From Rhodobiaceae bacterium (GTDB lineage Bacteria; Pseudomonadota; Alphaproteobacteria; RS24): a stretch of 36,717 bases of DNA. Positions within the stretch are counted from its first letter, which is position 1. Each line of letters begins with the position of its first letter. Where the stretch lies: contig JAHEGN010000008.1 in the NCBI GenBank assembly GCA_024645085.1, positions 1 through 36,717 on the forward strand. The letters run 5' to 3'. Below, piece after piece: positions 8,082 through 32,495 of this stretch. Below the pieces are notes generated by a model. It was not told where the DNA came from. It made no database searches and saw nothing but the letters and a program-made list of their open reading frames with translations. The position numbers and the translations under genes were made by a program.

Positions 8082-8639
8082 ATGGTTGTTTTGCTGATTC
8101 GACGCTTCGCTAAAATGTCGCTTTTGCGGCCACTGCTGACCTTGGGTTTGTGTCTGGTGCTAACGACCGCCGCCTTATCAAGCCGGGCATTGGCAGAACA
8201 ACGCACGCGCGGTCAAAGCGGCTTATTATTGCCGCGTTTTGTGGCCACCAGCGAAGCCAAGGCCAATGTTAGGCGAGGGCCGGGCCAAGAATATCCGTTA
8301 CTGTGGCAATATCAGGGGCTTGGTATTCCGCTGGAGATAATCGCCGAATATGGCCATTGGCGGCAAATCCGCGACCATGAGGGCGACGAGGGCTGGATGC
8401 ATATGCGGCTGTTGCGCAGCACCCATCGGGTGATGGTGCAAAGCGGGCCGCATGCGATTGCTTTGAAAGCCCGCCCAGACACCGGCGCCAGCACCCGCGC
8501 CTATGTCAGCAACGGCGCCTTAGGCAAGGTCTCACAATGCAGCCAAGGCTGGTGTGAGATTGCCATAGGCGACTATGATGGCTGGTTGCCAAGGGACAAA
8601 TTATGGGGCCTTCACGCCTCTGATTTCACCGACGATTAG
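8082..8639 (+). CDS. Secreted/periplasmic bacterial SH3-domain protein
   Basis: Hypothetical exported protein of 185 residues. A basic N-terminal stretch is followed by a hydrophobic core (LLTLGLCLVLTTAALSS) and a plausible signal-peptidase site after SRALA near residue 38. The mature part holds two SH3-like units. The first is FVATSEAKANVRRGPGQEYPLLWQYQ through GWMHMRLL. The second includes KARPDTGAST and GWLPRDKLWGL. Two cysteines in SQCSQGWCEI could form a disulfide. Such proteins often bind cell wall, but no enzymatic domain is present and the role is unknown. It is monocistronic and converges on the DUF3501 gene. Confidence 0.85.
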   Translation: MVVLLIRRFAKMSLLRPLLTLGLCLVLTTAALSSRALAEQRTRGQSGLLLPRFVATSEAKANVRRGPGQEYPLLWQYQGLGIPLEIIAEYGHWRQIRDHEGDEGWMHMRLLRSTHRVMVQSGPHAIALKARPDTGASTRAYVSNGALGKVSQCSQGWCEIAIGDYDGWLPRDKLWGLHASDFTDD

Positions 8640-8654
8640 AGACTTTAGCGACGA

Positions 8655-9248
8655 TTAAGCGTCGAAATCGGCTGCCAATGAGGCTTTGGTTTCGGCGTTT
8701 AATTCGGTCATATGGCGATAATTCTCATGGCCAATGCCCAAAATTACCCGCGTCTCATCGGCAGCAAATTTACTAATCAAAGCGGCTGGAAAACGGAAGT
8801 GCAGGAAGTGAACCGAGGAGGTTTTCCCATCCGCTGCTGTGCGCTCAACTTCTTGTTCAGGCTCGGCAAAAACTTTCTCGCCATCGACTTCTATATAGGC
8901 GGTCAGCTCAACATCGGTCAGACTGCGCAGCACTTTGCCGCGCCGCACTTCATCATTGATTTCGAACATCAATGTGGCGGTCAGTTCTGAGCCTTGCGGA
9001 ATCATCGGATTATAGGCCTCAAGCTCGTCGATCAATTGTTCATCGCCGCCCTTTTCAATATACAGCATTTCTTGAATCTGCTGTTTCATGGTGGCGTAAT
9101 TTTCGAAGTAAAACGTCGCATCAGGGCCAATTTCAATACGCCGTGGTTTTTTTATTTGCACAATGTCGCGGCGCAATTGGTCGCGCACGGGCAGATAATA
9201 TTCGAGTGTCAAAATGTCGTTTTTGGTGAGGGTTTTGGGAGTTGTCAT
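8655..9248 (-). CDS. DUF3501 family protein
   Basis: Soluble protein of 197 residues with no signal peptide. It opens MTTPKTLTKNDILTLEYYLPVRDQLRRDIV and contains RRIEIGPDATFYFENYATMKQQIQEM, MIPQGSELTATLMFEI and VHFLHFRFP, which I recognise as DUF3501. It has no cysteines, so it is not itself an Fe-S protein. It is the last gene of the operon: its start lies 12 bases after the Fe-S gene stop, with AAGGA in front. This family is repeatedly found beside rubrerythrin and this Fe-S oxidoreductase; the biochemical role is undetermined. Confidence 0.85.
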   Translation of the reverse strand: MTTPKTLTKNDILTLEYYLPVRDQLRRDIVQIKKPRRIEIGPDATFYFENYATMKQQIQEMLYIEKGGDEQLIDELEAYNPMIPQGSELTATLMFEINDEVRRGKVLRSLTDVELTAYIEVDGEKVFAEPEQEVERTAADGKTSSVHFLHFRFPAALISKFAADETRVILGIGHENYRHMTELNAETKASLAADFDA

Positions 9249-9260
9249 GTTGTGTCCTTA

Positions 9261-10619
9261 CTAAACCAGCTGATAGGCGCTGGCAAAAACTTCAATAGGA
9301 TGTTTGGCTTCTGGTGGTGTGTTTTCGTTTATATCTTCTACCAATTGCACCAAATGTTTGGCCGCCAGTGGGCAATCTGAACAGACCGTGTCAGGCTCTG
9401 CCTTAGCGACATTGCGGGCCGCTGGCTTGCCAATTTTCACCGCCAATGGACGGGTTTCTTTCATCACGCCAAAAGTGCCGCCATGGCCCGAACAGCGCTC
9501 GATAATGCTGACTTCGGCTTGCGGAATAAAACGCAGCATTTCAGCTGATTTAGGCCCAACATTTTGCGCCCGTGCGTGACAGGCCAAATGCATGGCAATT
9601 TTTTCGCTGCCGCCATTGAGCGGCATCAGGCCATCGGCCAAGCCTTCTTTATTGGCAATAGAGACGACATATTCTGAAATATCGCGGGTCGCCGCACTCA
9701 GGGCTTTGACGTCTTCATTGTCGGGCACAATCAATGGCCATTCAAATTTGAACATCAAACCGCAACTGGCGGTCAGGGTGATGATATCTTTTCCGGCATC
9801 AACCAGCGGGCGCAGGGCGGCGGCGACTTTTTCTGCCTGTTCAGCGACTTTCGCCAAATTGCCTTGCTCAAGATATGGCATGCCGCAACAGCCTGGATAT
9901 TCAGTGGTCACATTGACCCCCAAATGAGCCAGCACTTTGGCGGCCGCTTCGCCGACTTGCGGGTTGTTGTAATTAACCGAACATGTGGCGAATAACACGG
10001 CCTCGCGGCCTTTAGCTGGGCCGTTTGGATTGGCGTCATAGGCGCCTTGCGCGACCGCTTCTGCGGCCCGTTTCAAAAATGTTTTGCCAGCAAATTTCGG
10101 TAGCTCTGCTTGTTTGTCAATACCGGCGACGGCTTGCATAACCGGGCGGGTCAGCGCATTGCCTTTTTTCGAGCCCCAATTGGCCAGCGGTGCAACCGGC
10201 GCCAACATGGTGCCATTGCGATCCATTTGCGCCAATTGATTTTGCACGAAAGGCACTTTGCCGGTTTCTTTTAATTCGACGGCGCGATAGCGCAGCATCA
10301 AATGTGGAAAATCAAGATTAAATTCATGCGGCGGCACATAGGGACATTTGGTCATGAAGCACATATCGCACATGGTGCAAGCGTCAATAATCGGCGCAAA
10401 ATCTTTGCTGTCGACACTGTCCAATTCGCCGCTCTCGCTATCGTCGATTAAATCGAATAGGCGCGGGAAACTATCGCATAGGTTAAAACACCGGCGGCAG
10501 CCGTGACAAATGTCAAACTGGCGGCGCAGCTCATCATCGAGCGCGGCGCGGTCATAAAATTCTTCGCTGTGCCAATCAATTGGATGGCGCGTTGGTGCGT
10601 CGAGGCTGCCTTCTTTCAT
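9261..10619 (-). CDS. Two-[4Fe-4S] heterodisulfide-reductase/GlpC-like Fe-S oxidoreductase with CCG domains
   Basis: A 452-residue cytoplasmic iron-sulfur protein. Two ferredoxin-type sites are visible. Cys38, 41, 44 and 48 form CHGCRRCFNLC. Cys81, 84, 87 and 92 form CTMCDMCFMTKCP, with four residues before the last cysteine rather than the usual three. The C-terminal half carries cysteine-rich CCG-type modules: Cys213, CCG at 244-246, Cys286, Cys347, RCSGHGG with a CSG variant at 376-378, and Cys413/Cys416. No flavin or transmembrane domain is seen. It lies between rubrerythrin and DUF3501, so a role in electron delivery during oxidative or iron stress is an inference. Confidence 0.85.
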   Translation of the reverse strand: MKEGSLDAPTRHPIDWHSEEFYDRAALDDELRRQFDICHGCRRCFNLCDSFPRLFDLIDDSESGELDSVDSKDFAPIIDACTMCDMCFMTKCPYVPPHEFNLDFPHLMLRYRAVELKETGKVPFVQNQLAQMDRNGTMLAPVAPLANWGSKKGNALTRPVMQAVAGIDKQAELPKFAGKTFLKRAAEAVAQGAYDANPNGPAKGREAVLFATCSVNYNNPQVGEAAAKVLAHLGVNVTTEYPGCCGMPYLEQGNLAKVAEQAEKVAAALRPLVDAGKDIITLTASCGLMFKFEWPLIVPDNEDVKALSAATRDISEYVVSIANKEGLADGLMPLNGGSEKIAMHLACHARAQNVGPKSAEMLRFIPQAEVSIIERCSGHGGTFGVMKETRPLAVKIGKPAARNVAKAEPDTVCSDCPLAAKHLVQLVEDINENTPPEAKHPIEVFASAYQLV

Positions 10620-10689: not shown

Positions 10690-11106
10690 TTAGTCCATTG
10701 AGTCCAAAGCTTTTTGGAAACGGCCTGCGTGTGACTTTTCAGCCTTCGCAAGGGTCTCGAACCAATCAGCAATTTCATCAAAGCCTTCTTCGCGAGCGGT
10801 GCGCGCCATACCTGGATACATGTCGGTATATTCGTGCGTTTCGCCTGCAATAGCGGCTTTCAGATTGTTTTCAGTTGAACCAATTGGCTCACCTGTTGCT
10901 GGATCACCAACTTCTTCCATGAATTCCAAATGACCATGGGCGTGACCTGTTTCGCCTTCCGCAGTTGAGCGGAAAACAGTGGCAACATCATTGTAACCCT
11001 CAATATCGGCTTTTTGCGCGAAATAGAGGTAACGACGGTTTGCTTGGCTTTCGCCAGCAAAAGCAGCCTTGAGATTCTCAAGGGTCTTCGATTGTGCGAG
11101 TGACAT
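10690..11106 (-). CDS. rbr: Rubrerythrin (ferritin-like diiron domain only)
   Basis: Diiron peroxidase-type protein protecting against hydrogen peroxide. The four-helix ligands are in place: Glu19 in [11 protein letters not shown], Glu52-x2-His55 in GETGHAHGH, Glu89/Glu92 in [11 protein letters not shown], and Glu123-x2-His126 in [10 protein letters not shown]. Length is 138 residues. The C-terminal rubredoxin domain of classical rubrerythrins is missing, so electrons must come from a separate partner. GGGAG precedes the ATG by 6 bases. An Irr-type palindrome lies upstream of its promoter, and irr is the next gene upstream. Confidence 0.92.
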
Positions 11107-11226
11107 GGGCGTCTCCCAGTTTAAGAGTTATAAATAATCGAAAGGCGTCATGCCTTCGATGATGAGATAGAGCATCAGCCCTAACTATCAAGAAAGATAG
11201 GCGGCAAATTATAGGAAGTCAAGGTA
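11107..11226 (-). promoter_or_regulatory. rubrerythrin promoter and structured leader
   Basis: On the minus strand, TTGACT (11222-11217), a 17-base spacer and TATCTT (11199-11194) form a good sigma-70-like promoter. An alternative -10, TATAAT, lies at 11213-11208. The leader of about 80 bases has two possible hairpins, TGATG/CATCA and CGAAGGC/GCCTTTCG (one bulge), before the rbr ribosome-binding site. Promoter assignment is by inspection only. Confidence 0.5.
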
Positions 11227-11245
11227 ATTTAGAATTATTCTAAAT
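11227..11245. promoter_or_regulatory. Irr box / iron control element (ICE)
   Basis: Perfect 19-bp palindrome ATTTAGAATTATTCTAAAT. The core TTTAGAA-N3-TTCTAAA equals the ICE consensus I recall for Irr in alphaproteobacteria. It lies between the irr stop (11249) and the proposed rbr promoter, only 4 bases from its -35. It also overlaps the -35 position that would serve the alternative TATAAT. Placement suggests Irr controls rubrerythrin according to iron or heme status; the direction of control cannot be read with certainty. Confidence 0.8.
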
Positions 11246-11248
11246 AAA

Positions 11249-11677
11249 TTATTTGTGACGCAGGCGGATAATCACATCGACACCCGCTGGTTCAAAGCCA
11301 GCCGGCGTTTGCGGCAGGTCGCTAATGGCAATGTCTTGATTATCAATGTCGATCAACCGGCTTTCGCTTTCGATATAAAAATGATGATGATCGCTGAGAT
11401 TAGTATCGAAATAGCTACGGCCTTGCTCGACAATCACTTCGCGCAACAGGCCAGCTTCGTGAAACTGGTTCAGCGTATTGTAAATCGTTGCTTGCGACAC
11501 GGCCAAACCATTAGCCCGCGCTTCAGCATGCAAAATTTCAGCGGTTATATGGCGATTGCCGCCAGAAAACAGCAAATCGGCCAGCGCCAGACGCTGTTTG
11601 GTCGTGCGCAGACCGGCGGCGCGCAATTTGCCGCTCAATTCACTCAATGTGGCTTCAGAAATATTTGTCTCATGCAT
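11249..11677 (-). CDS. irr: Fur-family iron response regulator Irr
   Basis: Alphaproteobacterial Irr senses iron through heme and controls heme, iron-storage and iron-uptake genes. The protein has the Fur-type winged helix (GLRTTKQRLALADLLF, then SQATIYNTLNQFHEAGLL). It also has RSYFDTNLSDHHHFY with the HHH motif at residues 97-99, which is diagnostic for Irr. The N-terminal heme regulatory motif of Bradyrhizobium Irr is absent. The ATG at 11677 gives 142 residues and aligns with known Irr starts; the ATG at 11707 would add ten residues (see findings). It diverges from fabA-fabB, a known arrangement. Confidence 0.9.
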   Translation of the reverse strand: MHETNISEATLSELSGKLRAAGLRTTKQRLALADLLFSGGNRHITAEILHAEARANGLAVSQATIYNTLNQFHEAGLLREVIVEQGRSYFDTNLSDHHHFYIESESRLIDIDNQDIAISDLPQTPAGFEPAGVDVIIRLRHK

Positions 11678-11712
11678 GGTGCAAAGCTTAGTGTTAGTTA
11701 AAATCATTCCAA

Positions 11713-11741
11713 TAAATAAATGTCTGGCCGCGCCCTGTCAA
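11713..11741 (-). promoter_or_regulatory. irr: Putative irr promoter
   Basis: TTGACA at 11741-11736, a 17-base spacer, then TATTTA at 11718-11713 on the minus strand. The -35 is a perfect consensus. The predicted transcription start is close to 11706, which places the upstream ATG (11707) at or before +1 and leaves about 30 leader bases for the ATG at 11677. Confidence 0.55.
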
Positions 11742-11815
11742 GCGTCGAATATGCTTGGGCTGGTTTGGGCGCCATGTTAGCTTGGCACAATACGAATAGA
11801 GAGAGAGCCGAGTTC

Positions 11816-12328
11816 ATGTCTGGTAAAAATTCTTATGGTTATGACGACTTAATCGCTTGCGCCAATGGCGAGATGTTTGGCGTCGGCAATGCCCGTCTGC
11901 CCGCCCCGCCCATGCTGATGTTTGATCGCATCACAAAAATCACCGACGATGGCGGCGCCTTCGACAAGGGTGAGATTATTGCTGAGCTAGATGTGAAACC
12001 GGATCTGTGGTTCTTTGACTGTCATTTCCGCGAAGACCCGGTCATGCCAGGCTGTCTTGGCCTCGACGCCATGTGGCAATTAATCGGCTTTTACCTCGGC
12101 TGGCGTGGCAATCCGGGCAAAGGGCGCGCCCTGGGTGCGGGGCAGGTAAAATTTACCGGCCAAGTGATGCCCGATGTAAAATTAGTGCGTTATGAAATTG
12201 ACATTAAGCGGATGATGACCGGTCGACTGACCATGGGCATTGGCCACGCACGGCTGTTTGCCGATGATAAATTAATTTACACGGCCGAGGACTTGCGCGT
12301 CGGCCTGTTCAAACCCGAACAAATGTAA
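11816..12328 (+). CDS. fabA: 3-hydroxydecanoyl-ACP dehydratase/isomerase FabA
   Basis: Dehydrates 3-hydroxydecanoyl-ACP and isomerises trans-2- to cis-3-decenoyl-ACP, the branch point of anaerobic-type unsaturated fatty acid synthesis. The active-site pair is visible in [23 protein letters not shown] as His70 and Asp84. The [10 protein letters not shown] and [11 protein letters not shown] blocks match the family. The ATG at 11816 gives 170 residues, like the 172-residue E. coli enzyme; the longer reading frame from 11720 lacks family support and runs through the promoter region. It forms an operon with fabB 16 bases downstream. Confidence 0.96.
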
Positions 12329-12347
12329 TCGGTTTTCGGAGGACATG

Positions 12348-13559
12348 ATGCGGCGAGTAGCAATTACCGGTATTGGTATCATTTCAAGCATTGGCAATAA
12401 TGCCACAGAAGTTTCCGCCAGCCTGCGCGAGGGTCGCTCTGGCATTAGCCGCTCTGATGAGCAGGTTGATTTGGGCTTTCGCAGCCAAATAGCTGGCCGC
12501 CCGCGTTTCGACATTGACGCCAATATTGATAAACGCAATCGCCGCTTTATGGGTGATGGCGCGGCATGGAATTTTGCCGCCATGGAGCAAGCCATTGCTG
12601 ACGCTGGCCTGTCACCTGATGATGTGTCGAACCCGATGACTGGATTGATTATGGGCTCCGGCGGGCCGTCGACCAAAGCCTTAATTGCCGCCGCTGATAC
12701 AGCCCGCAATGCCAGTCCGAAACGGGTTGGCCCCTTCGCCGTGCCGAAATGCATGTCATCGACCAATTCAGCCACATTGGCGACGCCATTCGCCATTAAG
12801 GGCATTAATTATTCCATCTCATCAGCCTGCGCTACCTCCACCCATTGCATTGGCAATGCCTCGGAGATGATTCAATGGGGCAAACAAGATGTGATGTTTG
12901 CTGGCGGCGGCGAAGAATTAGACTGGGCGCTCTCAGTTCTGTTTGACGCCATGGGCGCCATGTCGAGCAAATATAATGACACGCCAGCTGTCGCCAGCCG
13001 TGCCTATGACGCCAATCGTGATGGCTTTGTTATCGCCGGTGGGGCTGGTGTTGTGGTGCTGGAAGAAATGGAACGGGCGAAAAAACGCGGTGCCAAAATC
13101 TATGCCGAAGTGGCCGGTTATGGCGCCACATCAGATGGCTATGACATGGTGCAACCATCTGGCGAGGGCGCCATTCGCTGTATGCAAATGGCCATGAAAG
13201 ACCTTGATTGCCCGATTGATTATATCAACCCACACGCTACATCGACGCCGGTCGGTGACATCAAAGAGATTGAAGCCCTGCGCACTCTATTTGGCGCCGA
13301 CTGCCCACCGATTAGCGCCACCAAATCTTTGACCGGCCATTCGCTCGGCGCGGCCGGTGTGCAAGAGGCGATTTATTCCTTGCTGATGATGCAAGATGAT
13401 TTCATTGCCGCCTCAGCGCATATTGAAACACTTGATCCAGACTTTGCCGATATGCCAATCATTCGCGAGCGGCGCGACAATGCCGGGCTGAATTGTGTGA
13501 TGTCGAATAGTTTTGGCTTTGGCGGCACCAATGGCACGCTGGTGATGAAAAAAGTCTAG
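12348..13559 (+). CDS. fabB: 3-oxoacyl-ACP synthase I (KAS I) FabB
   Basis: Elongating condensing enzyme needed with FabA for unsaturated fatty acids. The thiolase-fold triad is Cys161 ([10 protein letters not shown]), His296 ([11 protein letters not shown]) and His331 ([12 protein letters not shown]); Lys326 is also conserved. The C-terminal [11 protein letters not shown] is typical. I choose the second of two tandem ATGs: 12348 gives [10 protein letters not shown], the usual FabB start, 5 bases after GGAGG (12338-12342). Length is 403 residues. The gene ends before a strong terminator, so fabI is not part of this operon here. Confidence 0.96.
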
Positions 13560-32075: not shown

Positions 32076-32495
32076 CTAGTCGTCTTTGTCGAGCGGCACG
32101 GCGTATAATTCAAGGCGATGGTCGACCAGCCGATAGCCGAGCTTGCGCGCCACTTCGGTTTGCAAACGCTCAATCTCTTCATTGGTGAACTCAATCACCC
32201 GGCCTGACTGAATATCAATCAGATGGTCGTGGTGGTCTTCCGAGGCGGGCTCATAGCGCGAGCGGCCATCGCCGAAATCATGGCGTTCCAAAATACCAGC
32301 CTCTTCAAACATCCGCACGGTGCGATAGACAGTGGCAATGGAAATCGCTTCATCTTGAGCTGAGGCGCGGCGATAAACCTCCTCAACATCTGGGTGGTCG
32401 TCCGCCGCCGATAGAACGCGGGCAATCACGCGCCGCTGCTCGGTCATTCGCATGCCAGCGGCAACCGCCGCCGCTTCAATATCTGATGGGTTCAT
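32076..32495 (-). CDS. Fur-family metal regulator (Fur or Mur)
   Basis: Second Fur-family protein in the window, distinct from Irr. The winged helix is MRMTEQRRVIARVLSA and SIATVYRTVRMFEEAGILERHDF. The metal-site region reads EPASEDHHDHLIDI (HHDH at 88-91). The C-terminal CxxC zinc motifs of E. coli Fur are absent, as in alphaproteobacterial Fur/Mur, which often responds to manganese. The ATG at 32495 (139 residues) lies 7 bases after AAGG; the ATG at 32501 is too close to it. Its location before plsC-miaB is the standard alphaproteobacterial one. Confidence 0.9.
   Translation of the reverse strand: MNPSDIEAAAVAAGMRMTEQRRVIARVLSAADDHPDVEEVYRRASAQDEAISIATVYRTVRMFEEAGILERHDFGDGRSRYEPASEDHHDHLIDIQSGRVIEFTNEEIERLQTEVARKLGYRLVDHRLELYAVPLDKDD

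Follow-up and report, generated by a model that had tools for sequence, protein, structure and literature searches.

A predicted Irr operator conserved at the rubrerythrin promoter of Alphaproteobacteria, with a probable role in peroxide defence

The separate parts of the locus described here, namely the iron control element (ICE), the regulator Irr and the rubrerythrin operon, are already known. Rodionov et al. 2006 (RegPrecise) reportedly predicted ICE-based Irr regulons in Alphaproteobacteria, and the ICE site at the rubrerythrin gene (rbr) may itself already have been predicted there. In R. sphaeroides, Irr binds the mbfA and ccpA promoters, and an irr mutant resists H2O2 (PMC3413700). With the ICE-Irr systems of B. 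japonicum and R. sphaeroides, our locus shares the palindrome TTTAGAANNNTTCTAAA, an Irr encoded in the genome and the location at a promoter; the R. sphaeroides targets ccpA and mbfA are also peroxide-related (PMC3413700), as are those found here. It differs from both systems in that the ICE abuts the -35 box at a near-fixed spacing, and also in its targets: in the order of this bacterium these are the rbr operon, katG and prx instead of bfr, mbfA or heme genes. PerR regulons, and perR or furA genes beside peroxide genes, likewise have a Fur-family gene next to katG or rbr, a 7-1-7 operator and five metal ligands; however, the regulator here belongs to the Irr equivalog family and lacks the CxxC zinc-site cysteines of PerR, and its sensing of peroxide is a prediction. 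The RBR-RFO-DUF3501 system of Cardenas et al. 2016 (PMC5114695) matches the locus in its three genes and their order, and in having a rubrerythrin that lacks a rubredoxin domain. Neither Irr nor a binding site came up in a search of that paper, and the Irr-ICE link proposed here would be an addition to the aerobic-type rubrerythrin system.

In the window, that is, the whole stretch of 36,717 nucleotides that was analysed, positions 11227-11245 read ATTTAGAATTATTCTAAAT, a 19-bp palindrome without strand assignment whose core TTAGAATTATTCTAA lies at 11229-11243. The ICE consensus, which we take to be TTTAGAANNNTTCTAAA and to act both positively and negatively (see also PMC3413700 and PMC7762939), is matched exactly at 11228-11244, and the palindrome fits TTTAGAA-N3-TTCTAAA exactly. 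There is no second match to TTTAGAANNNTTCTAAA in the window, even when up to three mismatches are allowed. The exact 17-mer occurs a single time in the 1,705,443-base genome; under an order-1 Markov model of the window, the chance expectation is 5.4e-5 per window and 0.0025 per genome of this size. The perfect ICE palindrome claimed in the first-pass annotation is borne out by this exact match, unique in the genome, and the end of irr, placed there four bases away, is close enough to what we found: three bases separate the palindrome from the irr stop codon (11249-11251, minus strand). Genome-wide matches with two mismatches were set aside, and only exact or conserved sites were used, since the real pattern gave four such matches and the reversed control seven. 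A weak match from that scan, on contig C33 near a FAD-oxidase-like gene, was lopsided and was discarded.

The irr gene (11249..11707, minus strand) encodes a Fur-family iron response regulator of 152 aa, although the gene may actually begin with the ATG at 11677. The protein scored above the cut-offs of the NCBIfam Irr and IrrA equivalogs, with 190.6 bits against NF045678 (cut-off 150) and 178.8 bits against NF045677 (cut-off 170); PerR profiles gave at most 62.7 bits, with cut-offs of 180-250. An HxH heme-binding motif is present as HHH at residues 107-109 and is shared by all 20 Irr proteins that were aligned, and no CP dipeptide, as in the Cys-Pro heme regulatory motif of the Bradyrhizobium type, occurs in the 152 residues. 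Irr residues H53, D101, H107, H109 and D120 align with H37, D85, H91, H93 and D104 of PerR, and all five are invariant among the 20 aligned proteins. In B. japonicum Irr, the same five residues form a non-heme iron site, which activates H2O2 and oxidizes the first histidine, as in PerR (PMC4700492). The CxxC structural zinc site of PerR is missing from the Irr sequence, and for this reason the protein was not filed as PerR.

Upstream of irr lies a weak ICE-like site, TTAAAATCATTCCAA (11698..11712, no strand assigned), with two mismatches. It is identical in the close relative G003, and comparable sites occur in most genomes of the order. Class-wide, an ICE with at most two mismatches was found upstream of irr in 12/99 cases versus 2/495 shuffles, and autoregulation of irr is possible on this comparison. 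The divergent neighbours of irr, fabA-fabB (11720..13559, plus strand; FabA equivalog), serve as context only and recur at nearly all irr loci.

On the other side of the palindrome, rbr (10690..11106, minus strand; PF02915, E=1.4e-31) encodes an aerobic-type rubrerythrin of 138 aa with no cysteine and no rubredoxin domain. It is followed by a gene for a Fe-S oxidoreductase of the GlpC/COG0247 type, the RFO of the rubrerythrin system (9261..10619, minus strand; PF02754, GlpC-like below cut-off), and by the third gene of the operon, which encodes a DUF3501 protein (8655..9248, minus strand; PF12007, E=1.1e-58). Synteny is conserved for both. A rubrerythrin without a rubredoxin domain thus stands together with RFO and DUF3501, as in the aerobic-type rubrerythrin operon. 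Just past DUF3501, an ORF of 185 aa (8082-8639 of the window, plus strand) resembles proteins encoded beside irr in three genomes of the order (G020, G023 and G026), and all of these are SH3-like, of the 'EANMRRGPGEDYPLLFQY' type. The same three genomes have neither rbr nor katG after irr, and no ICE there. Since they lack the rbr operon between irr and the SH3-like gene, this arrangement suggests that the operon may have been lost from them by clean deletion.

The rbr promoter (11194..11222, minus strand) consists of a -35 box TTGACT at 11222-11217 and a -10 box TATCTT at 11199-11194 with a 17-nt spacer. This is the sole conserved promoter ahead of rbr, and its TTGAC is invariant in an alignment of 11 genomes. 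The first-pass annotation had put the palindrome four bases from the -35 box of one candidate promoter, which proved correct for TTGACT, and over the -35 box of another, a promoter marked by TATAAT at 11213-11208; the latter promoter was rejected, as it is present in the alignment in this genome only. The ICE abuts the conserved -35 box on its upstream side and does not cover the start site, its centre lying at about -49 when transcription is taken to start 7 nt past the -10 box; from such a position an activator could act just as well. In the position profile, conservation on the promoter side extends from the ICE into TTGAC. The spacing was measured class-wide at the 59 irr-rbr gaps with an ICE of at most one mismatch: the distance from the ICE centre to the first base of the -35 match is 10-15 nt in 54/59 and exactly 12 nt in 36/59, and it is 14 in the window.

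The order comprises 28 genomes, belonging to one family and six genera. The exact core TTAGAANNNTTCTAA is present in 24/28 of these, and the reversed control pattern in one. Apart from a handful of sites taken up below, the exact ICEs have three locations. In 11 genomes the ICE separates irr from rbr-RFO-DUF3501; in ten it directly precedes katG, adjoining irr wherever the contig shows it; an eleventh katG genome (G027) has its ICE with one mismatch. Five genomes carry an exact ICE in a divergent peroxiredoxin/globin promoter. The katG and peroxiredoxin promoters repeat the layout seen at rbr, with the ICE, a few nucleotides, TTGAC, about 17 nt and the -10 box. Across the order, rbr was found in 11 genomes, katG in 14 and both in none (Fisher p=3e-5, uncorrected for phylogeny). 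The genomes with irr-linked katG form two separate clades in a FabA-FabB-Irr tree, each near an rbr genome (G011 and G019, respectively); therefore, rbr would have been replaced by katG at least two times, or katG would have moved between lineages. In these gene neighbourhoods, rbr and katG swap beneath the same ICE, and the operator is kept.

The peroxiredoxin and globin genes of the genome that holds the window (G000, contig C29; L150:3012-4076) share a divergent promoter, in which two ICE-like sites bracket the peroxiredoxin -35 and -10 boxes. The gene pair and both sites are common to this genome and G003, and in both of them the second ICE falls just past the -10 box; one site is present in G019, G020 and G023. 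In G020, which has neither rbr nor an irr-linked katG, a divergent katG (64% identical; G020:C20:5393-7950) stands beside a third Fur-family-like match, so that another Fur-type gene adjoins its katG. Within one genus, an exact ICE core sits at the 3' end of a TrkA-like gene or close to it, immediately ahead of TrkH (L118, L119 and L120; contigs C95, C16 and C39 of G007, G008 and G009). This context was read in G007, whose spacing the other two share, and the sites were judged a coding coincidence. An ICE near a contig end (G011:C50) was left without an assignment. No ferritin-family or VIT1/MbfA genes were detected in the genome that holds the window.

For the class, we examined 240 alphaproteobacterial genomes, leaving out G000 and G003. 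At the thresholds used, 140 had an Irr match, 122 an rbr match and 107 both; of these 107, 102 have rbr as the gene immediately downstream of irr. The best ICE match in the irr-rbr gap (n=100) had no mismatch in 25, one in 34 and two in 24. Thus an ICE with at most one mismatch was found in 59/100 gaps versus 1/1000 shuffled gaps, and with at most two in 83/100 versus 10/1000. Relatives are not independent, and the shuffle and Fisher figures therefore overstate significance; the better guide to conservation is the spread over families, 41/63 of which have at least one gap with an ICE of at most one mismatch. Where Irr was not found at the threshold used, an ICE with at most one mismatch lies upstream of rbr in 1/15 genomes, which compared with 59/100 gives a Fisher p=1.4e-4 (kinship of the genomes ignored). 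The exception, G216, has an exact ICE ahead of rbr in a very AT-rich region and no detected Irr. A divergent Irr-like match was found in G224, whose site has two mismatches. Of four rbr genes that share a genome with irr but lie away from it, three keep an ICE with at most one mismatch. The ICE therefore goes with rbr and with Irr being present, not with the end of irr, as it is kept at rbr genes away from irr and is rare without Irr. The absences in G216, G001, G007 and G013 carry little weight because the genomes are partly incomplete. In two genomes in which Irr was not detected, another Fur-family-like match occupies the usual place of irr, directly upstream of a distant rubrerythrin of 51-53% identity (L261, G191:C83:2662-3200; L262, G197:C2:18276-18790). 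Conservation of the palindrome upstream of rbr in relatives, which had been proposed as a check, holds across the order and the class, and this agrees with the earlier assignment of the ICE to the rbr operon promoter.

The palindrome is, from its conservation and sequence, a predicted ICE-type operator and conserved regulatory element, and the Irr encoded next door almost certainly would dock there: the cognate Irr is present and co-occurs with the ICE, irr adjoins the site, and the site sits at a promoter, 4 nt from the conserved -35 box of rbr. Irr as the predicted ICE binder is well supported. The genome encodes exactly two Fur-family proteins, Irr and one of the Fur/Mur type (32103-32459, minus strand; PF01475, E=2e-40), 21 kb from irr. 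This count was put in favour of the palindrome serving Fur/Mur, or being a PerR box, instead of an Irr site, as was the 7-1-7 core TTAGAATnATTCTAA, which resembles PerR and Fur boxes. Such an assignment is nonetheless very improbable: several genomes with a Fur-family match and no irr have no ICE, so that the element tracks irr rather than Fur, and no third Fur-family gene of the PerR type was found in the genome. Proximity to the irr stop codon, only three bases away, would fit a part of the irr transcription terminator. However, the palindrome is AT-rich and absent from the terminator scan, and the ICE is gone after irr where no target follows and kept at rbr genes away from irr. The expectation of 5.4e-5 in the window speaks against a chance palindrome. 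A chance or terminator origin has a negligible probability and was ruled out by conservation together with the background counts.

When the class was searched for the composite promoter (ICE plus -35 box), 32 matches in 30 genomes were obtained, against none with the control. Besides many irr-rbr sites, the targets are katG, a catalase gene, an NfuA-like gene, sufB (in two small genomes) and possibly a globin. In G135, from a different family, katG directly follows irr under an ICE. In the two small genomes, which are AT-rich, the cassette precedes the Fe-S cluster assembly gene sufB and faces a divergent gene (L274 and L275). The same cassette lies ahead of a gene for an NfuA-like Fe-S scaffold (L294, G048) and of a monofunctional-type catalase gene (L293, G092). 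A further site, in G201 (L283), precedes a gene for an outer-membrane-like protein and is of unclear relevance.

We consider it probable that the Irr operator controls the rbr operon and that its likeliest purpose is peroxide defence, with Irr repressing and peroxide relieving the repression. Irr, as a dimer, would bind the palindrome next to the -35 box, and bound Irr would set the use of the rbr-RFO-DUF3501 promoter by RNA polymerase. In this order, the cassette of ICE and promoter would drive whichever scavenger follows irr, the rbr operon or katG, plus the peroxiredoxin. Irr would hold these promoters down in the absence of peroxide, and peroxide, acting on iron at the PerR-like His/Asp site with the help of heme, would remove the hold. 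The comparisons themselves show the element, its conservation and geometry, its co-occurrence with irr, the target genes and the conserved ligands; that Irr binds, that it represses instead of activating, and that peroxide outweighs iron as the signal, we infer. Peroxide defence is favoured because of the target list, the PerR-like ligands and the R. sphaeroides irr data.

The first-pass annotation had linked the operon to iron or heme status, and not only to peroxide. Its broader part finds some backing outside the order, where the cassette stands ahead of sufB, the NfuA-like gene and a catalase gene, so that Irr may also respond to iron; the strict sites in the order, however, are on peroxide scavengers. 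If Irr repressed rbr at low iron to spare iron, with heme as the relief, one would point to the iron requirement of both Rbr (diiron) and KatG (heme), to heme sensing by Irr in the species studied (PMC7762939) and to the cassettes ahead of Fe-S assembly genes in other families. Yet a thiol peroxiredoxin, expected to be iron-free, is under the same promoter in five genomes, and no classical iron-storage target turned up in the genome; the peroxiredoxin ICE and the lack of detected ferritin and MbfA weaken a reading by iron status. Ca. Pelagibacter ubique encodes Irr and no ferritin, and when iron is limiting its transcripts of rbr and suf increase (PMC2864753); this disfavours simple Irr repression at low iron and also counts against the peroxide-defence reading. 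The R. sphaeroides irr mutant is altered in peroxide resistance and hardly in iron-limited growth (PMC3413700). We regard control by iron or heme status as possible but doubtful, and the earlier statement that Irr represses when iron is scarce is not supported as it stood; the ICE abuts the -35 box rather than covering the start. The Ca. Pelagibacter transcripts would fit activation better, as would the near-fixed spacing of 12 nt from ICE centre to -35 box, typical of an activator, and the ability of Irr to activate depending on the ICE location (PMC7762939). The ICE would then be a promoter-upstream element at which apo-Irr aids RNA polymerase at low iron. We find this unlikely. The ICE of R. 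sphaeroides ccpA is some 40 nt ahead of the start, and ccpA is modestly higher in the irr mutant (PMC3413700), the second ICE of the G000 and G003 peroxiredoxin promoter is in a repressor position past the -10 box, and little activator help should be needed because the -35 hexamers are near consensus. In one sentence, we favour an operon for peroxide defence that is predicted to be controlled by Irr and to take iron and heme as inputs.

New here are the conservation of irr and the rbr operon as one block across Alphaproteobacteria (102/107) with the operator near-fixed in the promoter, and, in one order, the exchange of the gene under the ICE (rbr for katG) at least two times or by transfer, with the operator retained. 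Taken together, these comparisons suggest that defence against peroxide is one of the core tasks of Irr, possibly an ancestral one. More tentatively, Irr in this order might be a PerR-type peroxide switch and not an iron regulator, sensing H2O2 via iron at H53/D101/H107/H109/D120 without a heme regulatory motif and having as its strict regulon the rbr operon or katG plus the peroxiredoxin. If this were true, the class-wide irr-ICE-rbr block would represent the ancestral role of Irr in Alphaproteobacteria, and the rhizobial iron regulon would be derived from that role.
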